This document shows positions 27,162 to 36,293 of a DNA stretch of 64,000 bases, piece after piece; the stretch's first letter is position 1, and each line of letters begins with the position of its first letter. The stretch spans positions 1-64,000 of the forward strand of contig JAFGBD010000012.1 of the NCBI GenBank assembly GCA_016933335.1, in the 5' to 3' direction. A model generated the notes under the pieces. The model made no database searches, was not told where the DNA came from, and saw only the letters and a program-made list of their open reading frames with translations. The position numbers were made by a program, and so were the translations under genes. The DNA is from Bacteroidales bacterium. GTDB lineage: Bacteria; Bacteroidota; Bacteroidia; Bacteroidales; UBA10428.

Positions 27162-29039
27162 ATGAAAGCAGTTATTTTAGCAGGTGGTAAAGGAACCCGC
27201 CTGGCAGAATATACCAGGGAAATTCCCAAGCCCATGCTCCAGATCGGAGGTAAATCCATCCTTGAATACCAGATTGATATGCTCATTAAATACCAGGTTA
27301 AGGAAATTATCATCCTGGTGAATTATCTTAAAGATATCATCATCAACCATTTTGGTGACGGCAGCACTTATAACATCAGCATCAGGTATTTTGAAGAAGC
27401 CAGGCCACTGGGTACGGCAGGAGGACTGAAGGAGGTGGAAGAATGGCTGGAAGATGATTTCTTTGTGCTCTATGGCGATGTCATGATCAATATGGACCTG
27501 CAGCGGCTGGCAGATTACCATTTACAAAAAAAGAGCCAGTGTACCCTTGTACTGCATCCAAATAACCACCCCTACGACAGCGACCTGGTTGAAACAGATG
27601 CAGACGGCAGGATCATTTCCTTTCATCCTAAACCGCATGAAAACCTCTCGTATTACCATAACCTGGTGAATGCCGGGGTATATGTTTTCTCACCTGATAT
27701 TCTGAATTATCTTGAAAAAGGTACAAAAGCCGACTTCGGCAGGGAAGTTTTTCCGCGAATATTCAATGATCTGAGGATGTATGGCTATATCACTTCCGAA
27801 TACCTTAAAGATATGGGCACACCGGAACGGTGGGAGGAAGTCGGCAGGGATTACAAAACCGGAAAAATCTTTCAGTTCAATTATGAAAATCCGCAAAAAG
27901 CAATATTTCTTGACCGTGACGGTGTGCTGAATGTGGAAAGAAGCTTTATCAGCAGGCCTGAAGAACTTGAATTGTATGATTTCACGCCTGAAGCGATCCG
28001 TAAAATCAATGAATCGCATTATCTGACCGTTGTCGTCACCAACCAGTCGGTTATAGCGCGAAACCTCTGTTCGCTGGAAGAACTGGACCTTATTCATAAA
28101 AAACTGGAGACCGACCTGGGCATGCAGCATGCCTATCTTGACGCCTTGTACTTCTGTCCTCATCACCCCGACAAAGGTTATCCCGAAGAAAGGAAGGAAT
28201 ATAAAATAGACTGTGACTGCCGCAAACCCAGGCCGGGCCTTTTCCTCAGGGCAGCTAAGGACCTCAGTATCAGTCTGAATGAATCATGGATGATCGGAGA
28301 CTCCGAACGTGATATACAGGCCGGTATCAATGCAGGATGCCGGACCATTGGCGTGATGACCGGTTACGGTATTGCTGCTGCCGGTATACAGCCCGATTTT
28401 TTCTTTGCCGACCTGCTTGAAGCCGCCGACTTTATCATTCAGGATCCCTATCAGAAGAATTTTATTGAACTGAAAAAAAAGGTCGAATCGCTAAAAAAAC
28501 GACCGGTTATCTTTTCGGTGGCAGGTAACTCCAGGTCAGGAAAGACCAACTTTGTTTCATACCTGAATCTTTCTTTCAAAAAAAATGGCTACAGGATCCT
28601 GACAATTGATCTTGATAACTGGATCCTTCCGGAATCTGAAAGGAAGAGCTGCAAAAATGTGTATGACAGGTTTCAAAGCAGGAAAATAGAAGAGGATATC
28701 GCAAGACTTCTGGATGGTGAAACAATACAGGTACAAACTTACGTCAATCATCCGGAAAGGATTTCACAACCTGTTGAGTACAGTTTTCAGCAGGAAGATA
28801 TTGTCATCATTGACGGTATTGTTTCACTCGGACTCTATAAGATCCGCCAGATAACCGACATTAAAATATTTATGGACATCGATCTGCAGGTTCTCCGCGA
28901 AAGACTTGATAAATACTATTCATGGAGACAGAAGGGAAAAGATGAGATCGAACAGCTTTTTCAAAAAAGAAAAACCGATGAGTATCTTTTAATAGAAAAA
29001 GACCGTAAATTTGCTGACTTTATCATTAATGCAATTTAA
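27162..29039 (+). CDS. Three-domain fusion: sugar-1-phosphate guanylyltransferase (HddC-like), GmhB-type phosphatase and P-loop kinase
   Basis: From ATG 27162 the protein has 625 residues (a TTG at 27123 would extend it). Residues 1-235 are a nucleotidyltransferase (AVILAGGKGTRL, IPKPMLQIGGKSILEY, YGDVMINMD). Residues about 245-425 are a HAD-IIIA phosphatase like GmhB, with D251/D253 in FLDRDGVLN and zinc ligands in C332-P-H334 and C351-D-C353. Residues about 447-625 form a uridine-kinase-like P-loop domain with Walker A GNSRSGKT (455-462). Together with the next two genes this gives every step of GDP-D-glycero-alpha-D-manno-heptose synthesis; the kinase domain is extra and its substrate is unknown. 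Confidence 0.88.
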   Translation: MKAVILAGGKGTRLAEYTREIPKPMLQIGGKSILEYQIDMLIKYQVKEIIILVNYLKDIIINHFGDGSTYNISIRYFEEARPLGTAGGLKEVEEWLEDDFFVLYGDVMINMDLQRLADYHLQKKSQCTLVLHPNNHPYDSDLVETDADGRIISFHPKPHENLSYYHNLVNAGVYVFSPDILNYLEKGTKADFGREVFPRIFNDLRMYGYITSEYLKDMGTPERWEEVGRDYKTGKIFQFNYENPQKAIFLDRDGVLNVERSFISRPEELELYDFTPEAIRKINESHYLTVVVTNQSVIARNLCSLEELDLIHKKLETDLGMQHAYLDALYFCPHHPDKGYPEERKEYKIDCDCRKPRPGLFLRAAKDLSISLNESWMIGDSERDIQAGINAGCRTIGVMTGYGIAAAGIQPDFFFADLLEAADFIIQDPYQKNFIELKKKVESLKKRPVIFSVAGNSRSGKTNFVSYLNLSFKKNGYRILTIDLDNWILPESERKSCKNVYDRFQSRKIEEDIARLLDGETIQVQTYVNHPERISQPVEYSFQQEDIVIIDGIVSLGLYKIRQITDIKIFMDIDLQVLRERLDKYYSWRQKGKDEIEQLFQKRKTDEYLLIEKDRKFADFIINAI

Positions 29040-29041
29040 GG

Positions 29042-30031
29042 ATGATCATTTCCCGGACACCTTTCAGGATTAGTTTTGTAGGCGGCGGCTCAGACATGGA
29101 AACCTTTTATTCCAGGCACCGCGGGGCTGTCCTGAGCACCTCCATCAACAAATACATGTACATCTCCTCGCACAGGTTCTTCTTCCCGGATAAAATCCGC
29201 ATCAAATATTCACAGACAGAAACAGTGAATTCCGTTCAGGAACTTCAGCATCCCATCCTGCGTGAGACGTTGAAAAAGCTGAATATCCCGGGAGGAACAG
29301 AGATAAGCTCCATTGCTGATATACCTGCCGGAACCGGTATGGGCTCCTCTTCGTCTTTCACGGTCGGACTGCTGCATAATCTTTATGCAGTAAAACGGCA
29401 GTTTGTGACACACGAACAGCTGGCAAGAGAAGCATGTGAGATCGAGATCGGCCTGCTCAAGGAACCGATAGGTAAGCAAGACCAGTATGCTGTTGCTTTC
29501 GGCGGATTAAATGTCATCTCTTTCAATCCCGACGGTAGTGTCGTTGTTGAACCATTGTATATTAAAAATGAAGTTTATGAAGCATTGCAGGAAAACCTGC
29601 TTATGTTTTATACCGGTAATCAGCGCAAAGCTTCTGATATTCTGTCAGAACAGAAAAAAAATGCATCAAGGGAAGATAAGTTCAATATCCTGAAGTCGAT
29701 GGTGACCCTTGTATCTGATCTTAAAGAATGCCTGTACAATGAAAACCTTGATGATTTCGGAAAAATTCTGCATGAGAACTGGATCCTGAAACAAAAACTG
29801 GCAGCACATATCAGCAACAGCGAGATCGGGGAGATGTACAGGACAGGTTTGAAGAATGGTGCCACAGGGGGAAAGTTGCTCGGTGCCGGTGGCGGTGGTT
29901 TTATGTTATTCTACTGTGAAAAAAACAAACAAATGAAACTTACTGAATCGTTGAAACATTGCAGAAAATTTGATTTTGCTTTCGAACGCGACGGTTCAAA
30001 ACTTATTTATTTTGCCGATGAAAAATTCTGA
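29042..30031 (+). CDS. hddA: D-glycero-alpha-D-manno-heptose-7-phosphate kinase
   Basis: The 329-residue GHMP kinase begins MIISRTPFRISFVGGGSDM, with the ATP loop PAGTGMGSSSSF at about 95-106 and a C-terminal GGKLLGAGGGGFMLFY. These are typical of HddA, which phosphorylates C1 of heptose-7-phosphate. It starts 2 bp after the fusion gene's stop codon and overlaps gmhA by 14 bp, so the three genes form one operon. Confidence 0.92.
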   Translation: MIISRTPFRISFVGGGSDMETFYSRHRGAVLSTSINKYMYISSHRFFFPDKIRIKYSQTETVNSVQELQHPILRETLKKLNIPGGTEISSIADIPAGTGMGSSSSFTVGLLHNLYAVKRQFVTHEQLAREACEIEIGLLKEPIGKQDQYAVAFGGLNVISFNPDGSVVVEPLYIKNEVYEALQENLLMFYTGNQRKASDILSEQKKNASREDKFNILKSMVTLVSDLKECLYNENLDDFGKILHENWILKQKLAAHISNSEIGEMYRTGLKNGATGGKLLGAGGGGFMLFYCEKNKQMKLTESLKHCRKFDFAFERDGSKLIYFADEKF

Positions 30032-30626
30032 TTATACTGCCTATTTTGATAAAGTTGCAGCTACGCTTAAAAAGATTGACCAGGATATTCTTGAAAAACT
30101 GGTAAAGGTCATTCTTGAATGCCGCGACAGGGGTAATACCATTTATATCTTCGGAAACGGAGGAAGTGCCGCAACAGCCTCGCATGTCGCCGGTGATTTC
30201 ATGAAAGGTATCTCTTACCAGCTTGAAAAACGTTTCAGGGTAATATGTCTTTGTGATAATATTCCGGGTACATCTGCCATATCCAATGATCTCACCTATG
30301 AGGATGTTTTCATCGAACCCCTGAAAAGTTTTGTGAATAAAAACGATGTTGTGATCGGAATTTCAGGCAGCGGGAACTCGGTCAATGTTATCAGGGCATT
30401 GGAATACGCCGTCGCAAAAGGTGCAACTACTGTTGCCATGGTTGGTTATAAAGGAGGCAAACTCAAAGATACCGCCGACATCGTGGTTCATGTTCCCGTC
30501 GATGATATGGAGGTTGCAGAGGATATCCATCTTATCATTTTTCATGCCATAAAGCAAAGCATTAACCGTCTCTTAAAGGGAGACCATTATTCAATGGGAT
30601 CTAACTATGACCGGCGTGTGAAGTGA
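30018..30626 (+). CDS. gmhA: Sedoheptulose-7-phosphate isomerase
   Basis: From ATG 30018 (MKNSDYTAYF) the protein has 202 residues and overlaps the end of hddA; the longer alternative start inside hddA is unlikely. The SIS domain carries FGNGGSAATASH and GISGSGNSVNV, as in GmhA. It converts sedoheptulose-7-phosphate to D-glycero-D-manno-heptose-7-phosphate, the entry step for both GDP- and ADP-heptose. It ends 51 bp from the convergent family 9 glycosyltransferase gene. Confidence 0.93.
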   Translation: MKNSDYTAYFDKVAATLKKIDQDILEKLVKVILECRDRGNTIYIFGNGGSAATASHVAGDFMKGISYQLEKRFRVICLCDNIPGTSAISNDLTYEDVFIEPLKSFVNKNDVVIGISGSGNSVNVIRALEYAVAKGATTVAMVGYKGGKLKDTADIVVHVPVDDMEVAEDIHLIIFHAIKQSINRLLKGDHYSMGSNYDRRVK

Positions 30627-30677: not shown

Positions 30678-31550
30678 TCACAATATGTTTTTTACCATTG
30701 AATAGATCTCTTCAGGATTAATTCTGGCCATACAATGGTCGGGACCATGAGGGCAGGGCCTTCCGTAAAGCTTACCATCCACATTCTTATCGGAGTCTAT
30801 GCACTCTTCGGTAAAGGGCAGCCGGCATGTACGGTCAGCTATGAGATGATGGTGTTCATCATATCCGTATCTCTCCCTTAATGTGGCACCCCAGAGCACA
30901 ACGGCAGGTTTTTTCAGCATGTGGGCAGCATGCATGACAAGGTTATCCGAGGTAATTACCAGATCGCATCTTCTGAGAACATTGATTAATTGCCGGAGAT
31001 CTGTCAGACCGAGCAATGAATAACTGTTGCGGATATGAACGTCCCTCAGCCTTCCGACCTGGAAGACAAAATAATGATCCATTTTAAGCTTTTCCACGAG
31101 TGCATGCCAGAGAAACGGAGGCATAACTTTCCTCGGGGAATCAGATGCCGGAGCTATGGCTATGCTGATGCTTTTCCAGGGGACAGCGTCTGTGAGTATG
31201 GAATCTTCAACCTCCATATCCGGAAGATAAAGTTTTTCTTCCACAGGGATATCCAGTCCGAAAGCTTTGGCTAATGTCTGGTATGCACGATGCACTCCCG
31301 GGCCCAGAATATCCATGCTCCAGTAGTCTACACTCACTATCTGTTCATCTTTTCCGGGATAGCCGATCTCTGATATGGCGGGATGACCTTTAAACACGGT
31401 CAGGTAATTGGTCCGCCTGATCAGGTTATACTTCCTGGCAGGATCCCGTTCAAGAACCTGTTTTAAAACCCCGGAGAGCATCAGCATGTCTCCAAAGCCA
31501 CCGATCGGATTGATCCAGGGATATGAATCAGGCTGCTTCATTCTTCTCAT
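30678..31550 (-). CDS. Glycosyltransferase family 9 (heptosyltransferase-like), last gene of the radical SAM operon
   Basis: The 290-residue protein has the GT9 start INPIGGFGDMLMLSGVL and the donor-site segment VITSDNLVMHAAHMLKKPAVVLWGAT, so it resembles ADP-heptose:LPS heptosyltransferases. The start may be ATG 31550 or 31541. Either start lies inside the 3' end of the upstream radical SAM gene (overlap 23 or 14 bp), so translation is coupled. LPS heptosyltransferases are not normally embedded in radical SAM operons; here it may glycosylate the Ser/Tyr-rich peptide encoded at the operon's start. Acceptor and donor are inferred, not shown. Confidence 0.87.
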   Translation of the reverse strand: MRRMKQPDSYPWINPIGGFGDMLMLSGVLKQVLERDPARKYNLIRRTNYLTVFKGHPAISEIGYPGKDEQIVSVDYWSMDILGPGVHRAYQTLAKAFGLDIPVEEKLYLPDMEVEDSILTDAVPWKSISIAIAPASDSPRKVMPPFLWHALVEKLKMDHYFVFQVGRLRDVHIRNSYSLLGLTDLRQLINVLRRCDLVITSDNLVMHAAHMLKKPAVVLWGATLRERYGYDEHHHLIADRTCRLPFTEECIDSDKNVDGKLYGRPCPHGPDHCMARINPEEIYSMVKNIL

Positions 31551-32607
31551 TTAAGAAATTTATAAGGAAGTCCTTTACCATACTTATTCGCGCATGACAC
31601 CAATTATCATCGAGCAGTTCATCATTTTGTGAGAAAGCATCCATGATGGTATTCCCAAAACAGGACGACCATAAACTGCAGCTATTGCAGTTCCTCACTT
31701 TACTTATATCATTCAACAGCTGATGATGATACTGGTTTGTTTTATGAACCATCTCTTCCATCGTTTCATTGAACAGGTTACCCAGTGGCATACCTGGTTT
31801 CTTATAATGACGATAGTCTCCTTCGGTGTCAATAACAACCGGTATTTCCTGACGGATATCTCCGGACAGGTTGTTGTTCAGCAATGACCGGGCTGTATCA
31901 GCCAGGCTGCTGTATGGTTCAACGGTGCTGATCCGGTCTTTTATCTGCCACCACAAAGGAAAGGTCTGTTGCAGGAACTCTTTAAAATCTTCCGGTGTAA
32001 TATTCAGATCCTCAAGGGCAGCATCCCTTATCATCACCGGATTTACAGATACAGGGCCGTTCAGGTTGATGTTGGTAAGATAGTAAAACACATCTTCGGG
32101 AAGATCCAATGATTTTTTTGTAACCACGTAATTGATCCCGACATTGATATTCTTCTTCTCAAGAAGCATCAATGCTGCAAATAACTTATTCTTGTAAGCA
32201 TGCCTGTCACCCGGCTTTTTCAGAAGCCTGACCGAATTATCCGGATCGATGCTGGTACCAATATTCTTAAGGTTAAGTGCCGTTAAAACCTGCAAAAAAC
32301 TTTCGGTCAGCAGCGTAAGGTTGCTCTGGAAACTGTGTATGATCCGGTGACTGCACTCAGCACAATACGCTGTCTGGGTTTTTAACACGTTTCTGTAAAA
32401 GTCAATGCCCAATAACAATGGTTCTCCGCCATGCCACTGTATTTCAATAGTCTCATCATGATTGAGTTTGAGATACCGGCCGGCTTTACTGAAAAGATTT
32501 TTTAAGAATGACAGGTTCACCTTTCTGAGTTTTCTCGATTTATCAGTGAAACAATAGATGCAATCAGAATTGCACCGGTTAACCGTTTTCAAAACCAAAA
32601 TGGGCAT
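31528..32607 (-). CDS. Radical SAM protein with eroded SPASM domain
   Basis: The 359-residue protein has the radical SAM cluster motif C12-x3-C16-x2-C19 (RCNSDCIYC) and WHGGEPLL. It is a paralogue of the gene at 32620-33720 (shared WHGGEPLLxG, SxQ(S/T)NLT, GTSxDP, FYxLTN and NPV). The C-terminal SPASM region keeps only C307, C310, C316 and C337. The two cysteines before it are gone (IDTEGDYRHYKK where the paralogue has C255 and C271), and T320 replaces the fourth clustered cysteine. It probably binds fewer auxiliary clusters. It should modify a peptide, presumably the YxSx repeat protein. It begins 12 bp after the upstream gene. Confidence 0.88.
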   Translation of the reverse strand: MPILVLKTVNRCNSDCIYCFTDKSRKLRKVNLSFLKNLFSKAGRYLKLNHDETIEIQWHGGEPLLLGIDFYRNVLKTQTAYCAECSHRIIHSFQSNLTLLTESFLQVLTALNLKNIGTSIDPDNSVRLLKKPGDRHAYKNKLFAALMLLEKKNINVGINYVVTKKSLDLPEDVFYYLTNINLNGPVSVNPVMIRDAALEDLNITPEDFKEFLQQTFPLWWQIKDRISTVEPYSSLADTARSLLNNNLSGDIRQEIPVVIDTEGDYRHYKKPGMPLGNLFNETMEEMVHKTNQYHHQLLNDISKVRNCNSCSLWSSCFGNTIMDAFSQNDELLDDNWCHARISMVKDFLINFLNEKNEAA

Positions 32608-32619
32608 CCGGCAAACTGG

Positions 32620-33720
32620 TTAAGGTTTGAAGATTGAACCGGTGACGGGTTCAAAGTACTTCTCGATAAATCCCTTTTTAGCATAGCACCATTCACTCTT
32701 ATGATTAAAATCCCTGTGTTTGGACCAGGCATCAAGCGGACACCCTCCATGACAGATCTCCCAGAAACGACATCCGGCACATTCCCCTTCCATTAATATC
32801 CTGTTTCTTTTCTCAAGCTGGTCTCTTTCCGGATGCCTGAGTATTTCGCTTATTTTGCTATCCCGGATATTACCATAATCGAGCAATTTCCAGTCAGATG
32901 ATCTTCCGCATTGCGAAGTATCGCCCTCGGGCGAAATGTTTATATGATGGTAGGTGCAGCTGCCTGAATCTACACAGGCCAGGCTTCTGTGACCATGTAT
33001 TATGTTATTCACAAGAGATTTGAATGGCTCTACATCCGGATAACGGTTCCGGTTTTCCCACCAGACCGGAAAAATTGCACCTAAAAACTCAACAAACTGC
33101 ACAGGAGTTACAGACAGGTATTTTCTCTCTTCATCATATATCAGAACAGGATTAAAATTAACACCTCCCGTCAGAAGGAAATTGGTTAAAAAATAAAACA
33201 CTCCCAGGGGATCTTTTAATGACATGCCGGTGACCACATATATCATTCCCCAGCCGATATCATATTTATCAAGTATTTTAAGTGCACGGATGAACTTTTT
33301 ATTATAGGATAATGTGTCAATGTTTTTACCCGGGCCACGCATATGAGGTTCCGGATCGTAACTGGTCCCGACACTTTTGATCCCCATGGCATTAAAAATG
33401 CTCACAAATTCTTCTGTGAAACAGGTAAGGTTTGTCTGGATGGAATGACTAATCCTGTTCCCGGTATCAGGACAATAATTTTTCTGAAAATCAATAATAT
33501 GCTTATAATAAGCTGCTCCCGGCAGCAATGGTTCACCTCCGTGCCACAGAAAATCCAGAGTTTCATCAGGATTATCAAGCAGGTATTCATTGGTTCTTTG
33601 AAACAGCAGCCTGATGATATCCAGTGACATGGTTTTTCCCGTGTTCTCTTTCCGGACGACATCACAATAACGGCAATTGGAATTGCACTTTTCTGTTACT
33701 TTTATAATTATGGTTGCCAT
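32620..33720 (-). CDS. Radical SAM/SPASM peptide-modifying protein
   Basis: The 366-residue protein has the radical SAM motif C12-x3-C16-x2-C19 (KCNSNCRYC), WHGGEPLLPG and a complete SPASM signature: C255-x10-G-x4-C271, then C314-x2-C317-x5-C323-x3-C327 and C345. It should bind one catalytic and two auxiliary 4Fe-4S clusters, as do sulfatase- and peptide-maturing enzymes of this class. Its ATG lies 13 bp inside the pseudo-radical-SAM gene. The lack of a sulfatase gene and the presence of a repeat peptide in the operon favour peptide modification. Confidence 0.93.
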   Translation of the reverse strand: MATIIIKVTEKCNSNCRYCDVVRKENTGKTMSLDIIRLLFQRTNEYLLDNPDETLDFLWHGGEPLLPGAAYYKHIIDFQKNYCPDTGNRISHSIQTNLTCFTEEFVSIFNAMGIKSVGTSYDPEPHMRGPGKNIDTLSYNKKFIRALKILDKYDIGWGMIYVVTGMSLKDPLGVFYFLTNFLLTGGVNFNPVLIYDEERKYLSVTPVQFVEFLGAIFPVWWENRNRYPDVEPFKSLVNNIIHGHRSLACVDSGSCTYHHINISPEGDTSQCGRSSDWKLLDYGNIRDSKISEILRHPERDQLEKRNRILMEGECAGCRFWEICHGGCPLDAWSKHRDFNHKSEWCYAKKGFIEKYFEPVTGSIFKP

Positions 33721-34580
33721 ATGAATTCTTCCTTTGTCGTGTTCTCTCTTTTCTTCAGATGCAGATCCACTGCCTCGAGAAATTCACTGAAAAAATCCCT
33801 GCAACCAGGATTATCTTTAATGGTATCTGCATATTTTCCAAGGCATATCCGCCAGCCTTTGCAGCAGGCACAGGGTGTTGGTTCCAGAAAGAATTCCTGC
33901 CACCGGTATAAATATTCCTTATAGGCTTTTTCCTGTGTAATACGGTCCAGCTTGTCAAGCTCCAGCAGGATACCGTTTACTGAATTCATTTGTTTACGGG
34001 AAAGAGCAAGCATACCCTCCCCGGTCAGATGAATGTATCTTGAAGCATCATCGAAGTACACAGCGCCATAATCAGTCCTGTTCTGCGGATGATAATAGCG
34101 GGTTACGTAACTGAAAGGTAATATCTCCCGGTGATTTACCACATTTAAAAGTGCATATGTCATCAGGTCTGTCAGTTCCTCCCAGTTCACTGTTTTACCA
34201 TTGATGATGACGGCACAATAATAACCCAGTGATGAGAGAATCCTGATATCCCGGTAACAATTCTCATAGTCAGTCCTGAAATAAAACCGGATATTGAGCT
34301 TCTTAATGACGGAAGCCATTTTCAGAAAACTGCTTAACCTGCCCAGCGAAGGAGATACAATGGCAATGGGGAACTTGCTCCATTCAGGTTTATAAATGAT
34401 ATCGGACAATGATTTTTTGGTTTCATATATGACACAGTGAATGTGTATATGATGATCCCTCGCATCAGACTCCAGGTCATACAGCTTCGAAAGACTGTCC
34501 AGAAAAAACACAACAGACCGGTCCCTGATACGTTTAAGAATTTTCGGGTTGTAATCACATACCAAAAAGTGTTCAGCCAT
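33708..34580 (-). CDS. Pseudo-radical-SAM protein (SPASM-like, no CxxxCxxC)
   Basis: From ATG 34580 (MAEHFLVCDYNP) the protein has 290 residues; the longer start at 34589 would be TTG. No CxxxCxxC cluster motif is present at the N-terminus, but the C-terminal part keeps a cysteine knot (C237, C239, C240, C246, C260 in TPCACCKGWRICLG and GCRDFF) like a reduced SPASM domain. I take it to be a non-catalytic partner, similar in concept to the pseudo-rSAM subunits described in Bacteroidales peptide systems. The start overlaps the preceding stop by 8 bp (ATGGCTGA) and its end overlaps the next gene by 13 bp. Confidence 0.75.
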   Translation of the reverse strand: MAEHFLVCDYNPKILKRIRDRSVVFFLDSLSKLYDLESDARDHHIHIHCVIYETKKSLSDIIYKPEWSKFPIAIVSPSLGRLSSFLKMASVIKKLNIRFYFRTDYENCYRDIRILSSLGYYCAVIINGKTVNWEELTDLMTYALLNVVNHREILPFSYVTRYYHPQNRTDYGAVYFDDASRYIHLTGEGMLALSRKQMNSVNGILLELDKLDRITQEKAYKEYLYRWQEFFLEPTPCACCKGWRICLGKYADTIKDNPGCRDFFSEFLEAVDLHLKKRENTTKEEFIWQP

Positions 34581-35595
34581 TTGATGCAAATTGATAGATT
34601 TCTTTCATTCTCACCGGATACTCATTCAGAAAACGGTTCAGGCTGTGCGCCTGGCATCCTCCCTTGCAGAGATCTTCTTCACGGTATTTGCAGTTGTCAC
34701 ATTCCTCATAAATCCCTCCTGATTCAACCCTGATCTTTCTGTGAATGTCTTCATAATAATCAAAAATTTCCCGGATGGAATTGAAGTCAAAGACCGACTT
34801 TTTATGAAAATCAGACAAAGGAAAACATGGCCAGAGGCTCATGTCGGGACCGATATCAATAACCGGGGCACACCCGAAATCATAATGACCCCCGGTATTC
34901 CGGTATAACCAGCCAAGCTGTTCATCGCTGAACCTGCAGAGCGGGAATCCGCAATCAAGACCGGGCTTTATCCTGAGCCGTTCCATCACCGGGACAAAAG
35001 AGTAAAACCTGTCTATGATCTTTTTGATGTCACCAGGCTGAATAAATTTATTCTTCTTCCCGGCAATAGGATGCGCAAGACCAACCCTGATAGTCCTGTT
35101 CAATCCGTATTCGTTTATATATTGAAAGATAAAACTTATATCGAAATCAAGCCTGTAAATATTAAAACCGGGGGTTATGCGTTCGCAGAAAGTACCCAGG
35201 AACCGTTTGATGCTCTCGGTTTCAGAAAGGCTCTGGGGTGTTGATTTCGGCTCGTTAAGATTAATGGTGAAAGATAACCTGTCAGGAGGAATACCGGAAA
35301 AAATGTTGCCTGCCTCACGAAGCTTGTCATCGCTCATAATACCGTTTGTAAAAACATTTATTCCGAAACCCCTTTCAAGAAGATATGCAATCATATCATT
35401 AAAATCGGGATGCAGTGTCGGTTCGCCACCCAGGATCTGAAATCTCTTTTCACCGGAAGTGGTGAAAAAATCAGCAAGATAAATCAGGTTTTCCCAGCTG
35501 ATGATGTCTGAAGGTGCGGAATCTGATAAATGCTTTTTGGCAAAACAATAAGGACATGACCTGTTACAGGTTTGTGTGAACAGAACATTAGGCAT
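34573..35595 (-). CDS. Radical SAM/SPASM protein, first enzyme gene of the peptide operon
   Basis: The 340-residue protein has C10-x3-C14-x2-C17 (TCNRSCPYCFAKK), the LGGEPTLHPDF motif and SPASM-like cysteines: CAPVIDIGPDMSLWPC, then C299-x2-C302-x7-C310-x3-C314 (CDNCKYREEDLCKGGC). It differs from the two downstream radical SAM paralogues (GGEPT rather than WHGGEPLL), so it belongs to a different subgroup. It starts 24 bp after the peptide gene and overlaps the pseudo-radical-SAM gene by 8 bp. The substrate is inferred to be the YxSx repeat protein. Confidence 0.92.
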   Translation of the reverse strand: MPNVLFTQTCNRSCPYCFAKKHLSDSAPSDIISWENLIYLADFFTTSGEKRFQILGGEPTLHPDFNDMIAYLLERGFGINVFTNGIMSDDKLREAGNIFSGIPPDRLSFTINLNEPKSTPQSLSETESIKRFLGTFCERITPGFNIYRLDFDISFIFQYINEYGLNRTIRVGLAHPIAGKKNKFIQPGDIKKIIDRFYSFVPVMERLRIKPGLDCGFPLCRFSDEQLGWLYRNTGGHYDFGCAPVIDIGPDMSLWPCFPLSDFHKKSVFDFNSIREIFDYYEDIHRKIRVESGGIYEECDNCKYREEDLCKGGCQAHSLNRFLNEYPVRMKEIYQFASNG

Positions 35596-35619
35596 TTGAA
35601 AAATTATCAGGTAAAATAA

Positions 35620-36093
35620 CTATTTTCCGCTGGAGTAAGTACTTCCGTAACTACTATACCTTGAAGAACAATAATAACTGTAATAATAAAGACTACCCCG
35701 TCCGCTGCAATACTGGCTGTAGTAACCACTACTATATTTGCTGCTGTACTTGCTGCTGTAACTGCTGCTGTAACTGCTGCTGTAACTGCTGCTGTATCCA
35801 CTGTTGTATCCGCTGTTGTATCCGCTGTTGTAACTGCTGCTGTATCCGCCACTGCTGTAAGCACTGTTATAACCGCTGCTGTAACCGCTTCCATAACCGC
35901 TGTTATAAAGACTGGAGTACTGGTTGCTGGAATACCAGCTTGAATAGTATTCATCCTCATCAGGCTCACACCTGTTAAATACCAGCAGTGCCGTTCCGGA
36001 ACCTGCTGCAATCATCGCCATGCGCCTGATAGCTTCACGTCTTGATGTTTTTTTCTGATTGTTCGCGGATTTGCGTTGTTCTGAGTTTTTCAT
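35620..36093 (-). CDS. Tat-signal protein with Tyr-x-Ser-x tetrapeptide repeats (candidate modified peptide)
   Basis: The 157-residue protein begins with a twin-arginine signal (SRREAIRR, R18/R19) and a hydrophobic stretch to about residue 39, then C42 and an acidic spacer (EPDEDE). Residues 49-157 hold 30 tyrosines. From Y63 to Y79 and from Y84 to Y128 tyrosines recur exactly every four residues (YNSG, YSSG, YSSS, YSSK). C129 and C142 are the only other cysteines. Low complexity is not a translation artefact: the frame has a proper start, signal and stop, and is followed by five tightly packed genes. Three radical SAM enzymes and a GT9 enzyme probably act on it. No database family is recognised. 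Confidence 0.85.
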   Translation of the reverse strand: MKNSEQRKSANNQKKTSRREAIRRMAMIAAGSGTALLVFNRCEPDEDEYYSSWYSSNQYSSLYNSGYGSGYSSGYNSAYSSGGYSSSYNSGYNSGYNSGYSSSYSSSYSSSYSSKYSSKYSSGYYSQYCSGRGSLYYYSYYCSSRYSSYGSTYSSGK

Positions 36094-36221
36094 AACGGTG
36101 GGTATAGGTGGTCAATTATTTTGCAATATAATCAAAATTAAACAATCCCGGATAAGTTTTCGTGTTTTTTTACCTGCCAGCCTGTCTCTGCAGATTCATC
36201 GTGACCAATCCTCCAGCCTGT

Positions 36222-36262
36222 AAGAAAAAAGAATCCTGCCGGTGGCTGGTTATACCGGCAGG
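36222..36262 (-). terminator. Rho-independent terminator after the YtfJ-family gene
   Basis: On the minus strand CCTGCCGGT pairs with ACCGGCAGG (9 bp, 10-nt loop; plus-strand 36235-36262), followed by ATTCTTTTTT. It lies between the YtfJ-type gene (ends 36294) and the repeat peptide gene (starts 36093), so the peptide operon probably has its own promoter in 36094-36220. Confidence 0.85.
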
Positions 36263-36293
36263 GTTGAAAACCAAAAAGATTTACGGTAACCTT

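Follow-up and report, generated by a model that had tools for sequence, protein, structure and literature searches.

Described peptide-modification systems and the locus in Bacteroidales

Several known systems in which radical S-adenosylmethionine (rSAM) enzymes modify peptides can be compared with the locus described here, a cluster of six genes at 30678-36093 on the minus strand of a 64,000-nucleotide stretch of Bacteroidales DNA (contig JAFGBD010000012.1, positions 1 to 64,000; hereafter the window). Triceptides are made by rSAM enzymes with a SPASM domain (YxdB, YhhB, MscB, GrrM/OscB, ChlB) that act on aromatic-x-polar substrates and link residue i to residue i+2, joining Tyr to Asp in the case of YxdB, Tyr to Arg in the case of YhhB, and Phe to Ser in the case of MscB (PMC11002830). 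For ChlB, a reference title uses the name multiple cyclophane synthase. His-Xaa-Ser (Hxs) systems, which the original prediction regarded as the closest idea, combine aromatic-x-Ser repeats with two rSAM proteins.

All six open reading frames (ORFs) of the predicted operon were reproduced, with the same coordinates and with spacing of at most 24 bp. In the reading direction, these are a 157-residue substrate protein with a twin-arginine translocation (Tat) signal and Tyr-x-Ser-x repeats (35620-36093), rSAM1 (34573-35595) after a 24-bp gap, a pseudo-rSAM protein (33708-34580) overlapping rSAM1 by 8 bp, rSAM2 (32620-33720), a predicted Tyr-x-Ser/Asn/Asp cross-linking enzyme that overlaps the pseudo-rSAM gene by 13 bp, rSAM3 (31528-32607) after a 12-bp gap, and a glycosyltransferase of family 9 (GT9; 30678-31550) overlapping rSAM3 by 23 bp.

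Of the two types of system, the triceptides are the closer parallel. The aromatic(i)-x-polar(i+2) pattern is present in the substrate, and the cassette may be a long-repeat counterpart of a triceptide system in the way it works. It differs, however, by a constant extra rSAM protein and pseudo-rSAM protein, a frequent GT9, Tat export and a long repeat protein. We do not claim membership, because no model of the maturases that form three-residue cyclophanes (3-CyFE) was reached at its cut-off. Hxs systems still stand as a conceptual neighbour, but the window peptide and its homologues carry Tyr in place of His and hold no His-x-Ser repeats. Likewise, rSAM2 scores 56 bits with HxsB against a cut-off of 370, HxsC was not among the matches listed, and the HxsA4 model matched one repeat protein (L043) weakly, at 22 bits with a cut-off of 55. 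The pseudo-rSAM protein, GT9 and the Tat linkage are extras of the cassette. Furthermore, rSAM2 could be aligned over almost its full length with DynA and DarE, at 150 and 126 bits (cut-offs 450 and 650); DynA and DarE act on short, non-repeat peptides.

Distribution of the cassette and its enzymes

About 85,000 species genomes were scanned with an rSAM1 profile, which returned 70 loci from a dozen or so phyla, including Gemmatimonadota, Nitrospirota, Thermodesulfobacteriota, Myxococcota, Ignavibacteriota, Bacteroidota, Armatimonadota, Elusimicrobiota, Spirochaetota, Chlorobiota, Pseudomonadota and others. When rSAM1, the pseudo-rSAM protein and rSAM2 are taken as a full cassette (n = 44, the window counted in), a Tat-signal Tyr-repeat protein lies near 41 of the 44, a number composed of 40 cassettes from a scripted count and one (L026, motif RREALER) added by inspection. 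In the three cassettes lacking it, the contigs end next to the cassette. The repeat protein mostly adjoins the enzymes, although the two are separated by about 5 kb in L073. Co-occurrence in other genomes had been proposed as a check of the original prediction, and it was found. On the other hand, none of the five loci with rSAM1 and the pseudo-rSAM protein but without rSAM2 (L049, L050, L052, L053, L065) has such a repeat protein, which points to rSAM2 as the repeat-specific enzyme. The conserved core consists of the peptide, rSAM1, the pseudo-rSAM protein and rSAM2. Of the six-part combination originally put forward, rSAM3 was seen in three loci only, and GT9 is frequent but dispensable.

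The rSAM proteins reached no NCBIfam family model at its cut-off, except for the generic SPASM domain, and together with the co-occurrence this agrees with the earlier view of an unrecognised peptide-modification cassette. Literature searches found no described Tat/rSAM/Tyr-repeat system; their coverage of subscription papers was partial and a prior mention is possible. The system is real, and it is unnamed as far as the searched family libraries reach.

Among 99 related genomes the pseudo-rSAM protein is present in four others, adjoined by rSAM2 in all four, and a sample of the phylum (395 genomes) contained it in just four further genomes of one genus. A tree of rSAM1 places the window, with 99% support, together with Gemmatimonadota, Nitrospirota, Thermodesulfobacteriota and Ignavibacteriota and separates it from other Bacteroidota; its rSAM1 is 65-67% identical to proteins of Gemmatimonadota, Nitrospirota and Thermodesulfobacteriota vs 49-58% within its own order. 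Horizontal transfer of the cassette is the simplest reading of these results. Single loci could possibly result from binning errors in metagenome assemblies. An rSAM1-like paralogue on another contig of the same genome (C29) was considered as a second cassette and rejected, as its neighbour has no homology to the pseudo-rSAM protein. That cluster (L004, 7492-11076), which holds the rSAM1-like gene (32% identity) and genes for an unrelated 318-aa protein, a small protein of 86 aa and an rSAM-like protein of 461 aa, is probably a different peptide-modification cluster.

Concerning the enzymes themselves, three rSAM/SPASM proteins had been predicted. The Radical_SAM domain (PF04055) scores above the Pfam cut-off in rSAM1, rSAM2 and rSAM3, but SPASM (PF13186) does so in rSAM2 alone. 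rSAM1 has no Pfam SPASM match despite its C-terminal SPASM-like cysteines; its cysteines are C10/14/17 and C215, 220, 242, 257, 299, 302, 310 and 314, and the family is strongly conserved: ten of the cysteines hardly vary, and about three quarters of the members have an eleventh. rSAM2 retains the three rSAM cysteines and the SPASM cysteine set family-wide. rSAM3 duplicates rSAM2 in a degenerate form: its rSAM cysteines are intact, but several SPASM cysteines are gone. Second rSAM2 copies were seen in three loci only (the window, L024 and L026).

The pseudo-rSAM protein lacks the CxxxCxxC motif, while a CxxC-x5-C and a later Cys are retained, and no family model matched it. Its AlphaFold2 model (predicted local distance difference test, pLDDT, 92.9) found CteB (E 3e-4, template modelling (TM) score 0.51-0.56), PqqE and SuiB in Foldseek, with modest scores that come from a predicted model. 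Because the predicted fold matches these three enzymes while CxxxCxxC is missing, we read the protein as rSAM/SPASM-like and as a pseudo-rSAM, as had been suggested. Comparing sequence profiles of the protein and of rSAM1 or rSAM2 gave signals too weak for proof of kinship, and the fold search decided the matter. A similar arrangement, in which the gene of a true rSAM peptide maturase is accompanied by that of a degenerate rSAM partner, is known from the GG-Bacteroidales system, whose pseudo-rSAM protein we take to be TIGR04150; the protein of the cassette differs in that NCBIfam gave no match to it, even with E values as high as 10 allowed. Pseudo-rSAM proteins of such kind have been noted in Bacteroidales clusters (PMC10352776). 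As the pseudo-rSAM protein is a fixed partner here, the cassette offers a natural setting for asking about its function.

The repeat substrate, its export and its glycosylation

The window substrate contains a Tat signal region (residues 17-42, SRREAIRRMAMIAAGSGTALLVFNRC, encoded at 35968-36045 on the minus strand) with the Tat-type motif SRREAIRRMA, a hydrophobic stretch and a lipobox-like Cys42. The Tyr-rich repeat region follows (residues 49-157, 35623-35949, minus strand), with about 100 residues of Tyr-x-Ser-x, and is the predicted modified part; a 12-bp tandem array of 13.3 copies at 35740-35902 encodes the repeat. In this protein 87% of the Tyr residues have a polar residue at +2, every one of them Ser. 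Across the homologous peptides, S/N/D/R/K occupies Tyr+2 for 73% of Tyr, compared with 41% when the tails are shuffled (z about 21, a value inflated by repetition). Among forward offsets, +2 ranks first in 42 of 48 peptides, and polar residues are depleted at Tyr+3 and Tyr+4. Apart from tetrads, the repeats take the form of triads (YSDYSD, YANYTN) and YYN/YYS/YYD runs, mostly with Ser, Asn, Asp or Arg at Tyr+2. The tetrad repeats noticed originally are real in the window protein, but the general substrate feature is Tyr-x-[Ser/Asn/Asp/Arg], of which the tetrad is a local variant.

Some substrates are built differently. Three peptides that prefer +3 carry GYGVSGDY units; these variant substrates, at L055 (7472-7834), L069 (7556-7948) and L071 (7561-7962), have GYGVSGDYVASG units with the polar residue at Tyr+3 and accompany otherwise normal cassettes. 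Within the 64-kb window, no second ORF combines a Tat signal with Tyr repeats. Near an outlying rSAM1 relative of an acidobacterium, L075 (4994-5530) encodes a short Cys-rich protein followed by YYTYYQTYYQTYYVYY. In L087 (2-616) at the end of a contig, a Tyr/Ser-rich stretch is continuous with rSAM1 in its C-terminal half, which may be an assembly join.

In regard to export, the motif [ST]RR[ED]ALKR[IM]A is near-universal among the homologous peptides, and two homologous signals pass the cut-off of the Tat signal model TIGR01409. TatC is encoded in the same genome as the window, and tatC adjoins four cassettes (L051, L060, L067 and L070), with TatA also beside L070. These observations argue for the predicted export through Tat. 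The window product is likely a lipoprotein. In Chlorobiaceae, the substrate runs on into an Lcl_C domain, named for the Legionella adhesin Lcl, in the two loci tested. Since the repeats join the signal to this domain, the repeat region has the look of a stalk or linker within a protein of the cell envelope, and we give a surface-stalk role of the product about an even chance. As further observations, the substrates of L105, L106 and L107 (Chlorobiaceae) extend into an Lcl_C-type domain, and L105 and L106 differ in the length and sequence of the Tyr-x-Ser stretch while much of the remainder is nearly identical. At L060 (11483-13912), tatC is followed by a gene for a 566-aa protein with a TatB-like start (by eye) and an rSAM1-like radical SAM domain at its end.

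The last gene of the window cassette was correctly predicted as a GT9 glycosyltransferase, with PF01075 above the Pfam cut-off and a model that matches the folds of 3tov, WaaF and TibC (TM 0.66-0.71). The bacterial autotransporter heptosyltransferases TibC and AAH share with it a GT9-like fold and four cysteines near the C-terminus, and they act on repetitive exported proteins, as would be the case here. On the other hand, the four conserved cysteines, a possible counterpart of the four-Cys iron finger of TibC, are spaced 7-15-6 vs 2-15-11 in TibC (model confidence is low there), the glycosyltransferase domain begins near residue 12, leaving no room for the N-terminal beta-barrel of TibC (about 97 residues), and the substrate is not an autotransporter. 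GT9 is frequent in the cassettes yet dispensable. It is fused to rSAM2 in six loci (L040, L041, L042, L046, L047, L048) and to the pseudo-rSAM protein in three (L049, L050, L052), and these fusions place glycosylation in the same pathway. The last three loci, from Syntrophorhabdus and relatives, contain rSAM1 followed by the fusion, and neither rSAM2 nor a Tyr-repeat protein is nearby.

Among cassettes in which GT9 presence could be scored, Ser is the main +2 residue in 16 of 23 with GT9 and in 0 of 15 without it (Fisher p 2e-5). Because there were few independent changes on the tree, this association is a lead and not proof for Ser as the acceptor; we consider glycosylation of Ser where GT9 is present somewhat more probable than not. 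Heptose as the sugar is suggested by the resemblance in fold and by the heptose operon next to the cassette in the window, and we propose it with some doubt. The earlier suggestion of a heptosyltransferase-like protein with heptose stands for the fold, but less so for the sugar: no HddA-like kinase turned up in G058, although GT9 is part of the cassette there, and the same was true of several further genomes that carry the cassette.

Possible chemistry and role of the product

Putting these observations together, we lean towards a mobile cassette dedicated to one exported, post-translationally modified repeat protein. According to this proposal, the precursor would be made in the cytoplasm, where the N-terminal [S/T]RR[E/D]ALKR[I/M]A would serve as a Tat signal and probably also as an enzyme leader. 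rSAM2, equipped with a SPASM domain, would act on each Tyr-x-[Ser/Asn/Asp/Arg] unit, most likely bonding the Tyr ring to the i+2 beta-carbon and producing a chain of three-residue cyclophanes; for the cyclophane chemistry itself, we see the chances as evenly balanced. The rSAM1/pseudo-rSAM pair could carry out a second maturation step or help to bind the substrate, and GT9, where present, would add a sugar, most likely on Ser. The stiffened product would exit via Tat, which carries folded proteins, and be displayed on the cell. The fullest form of the proposal, an unnamed mobile system for rigid, Ser-glycosylated poly-cyclophane stalks that are made in the cytoplasm, exported by Tat and used as a structural surface element and not as a peptide natural product, is a possibility that we consider somewhat doubtful.

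Several observations weigh against this proposal. The polar residue is favoured at +3 over +2 in three peptides (L055, L069, L071), and +1 is favoured in three peptides. Lipobox-like signals were found in just 16 of 49, a few of them doubtful, and HddA is patchy among cassette-bearing genomes. The association between GT9 and Ser is not significant after phylogenetic pairing (5 supporting pairs, 0 opposing), and the roles assigned to rSAM1 and the pseudo-rSAM protein are guesses. Finally, rSAM2 is at least as near to anaerobic sulfatase maturases (anSME) as to cyclophane enzymes.

This last point opens the possibility that rSAM2 is an anSME-like oxidase which converts the repeated Ser residues to formylglycine or a related aldehyde, some of them then glycosylated or condensed. 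anSME and DynA are the two best NCBIfam models of rSAM2, and its PDB relatives are anSME (the best) and ChlB. However, the anSME model TIGR03942 gives 155 for rSAM2 and 126 for rSAM3 against a cut-off of 349, the Cys-Asp of anSME, made up of the third SPASM cysteine and Asp277, which has a catalytic role, aligns with Cys-Gly (Gly272) in rSAM2, the conserved position is Asn or Asp, and not Ser, in many homologous substrates, and the sulfatase motif C/S-x-P-x-R does not occur in the window peptide, all of which makes such an oxidase improbable. In favour of the cyclophane proposal, cyclophane-forming models (YhhB, GrrM/OscB, AmcB, XyeB, FxsB) match 30 of 30 rSAM2 members tested, with the window protein below the cut-offs (YhhB 95 against 445, GrrM 80 against 310, AmcB 76 against 425, XyeB 69 against 450, FxsB 69 against 370).

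The relation of rSAM2 to DynA and DarE allows two further readings. These enzymes make other kinds of link than the i/i+2 cyclophane, an ether in the case of DarE, and adjacent Tyr runs occur in some lineages (YYNYYN), so rSAM2 could instead form a network in which the links join two Tyr, are ethers, or run from a Tyr side chain to a backbone carbon. We consider this unlikely, as tetrads, triads and YY forms of the repeat all have the polar i+2 residue, with depletion at +3 and +4. The same relation, together with the two or three different peptides found in some cassettes (L045, L051, L067, L070), could also indicate a secreted toxin or antibiotic of the ribosomally synthesized and post-translationally modified peptide (RiPP) class, like darobactin or dynobactin. 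Nevertheless, the neighbour genes searched, a part of all neighbours, included no C39 protease-transporter and held Tat components instead, and the long repeat arrays, the lipobox-like signals and the Lcl_C domains of Chlorobiaceae speak for a retained surface protein, making a toxin or antibiotic quite unlikely.

If the proposal of a Tat-exported, cross-linked repeat protein is true, we know of no earlier rSAM system for peptide modification with a tie to Tat, and there would be a physical reason for Tat, as Sec could scarcely thread a chain that is cross-linked. Cyclophane chemistry, so far a matter of short peptides, would also reach long structural repeats at the bacterial surface. The chemistry is directly testable because a culture-collection strain, Pleomorphomonas oryzae DSM 16300, has the cassette (L071); GT9 was not seen next to it, and a product with cross-links but no sugar would be expected there.

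Upstream of the operon, the predicted terminator was borne out by folding. The hairpin at 36218-36266 on the minus strand (36222-36262 in the original prediction), a rho-independent terminator of the upstream gene, has a 9-bp stem, a 10-nt loop and a T run, and folds at -17.4 kcal/mol (z -4.5). A consensus terminator scanner did not list it because of the 10-nt loop. On the other side of the cassette, a convergent operon on the plus strand (27168-30626) encodes a 623-aa fusion of a nucleotidyltransferase, a GmhB-like phosphatase and a uridine-kinase-like domain, followed by HddA-like kinase and GmhA-like isomerase genes. This operon, which lies outside the conserved cassette, was considered as a link to heptose supply but is regarded as a neighbour, as it is not beside other cassettes and HddA was not found in several cassette-bearing genomes; it could possibly supply GDP-heptose. 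A comparable fusion is present in G019 (41% identity). The wider surroundings, with aconitase, a TonB receptor and a homoserine dehydrogenase fusion, have the look of an ordinary chromosome.

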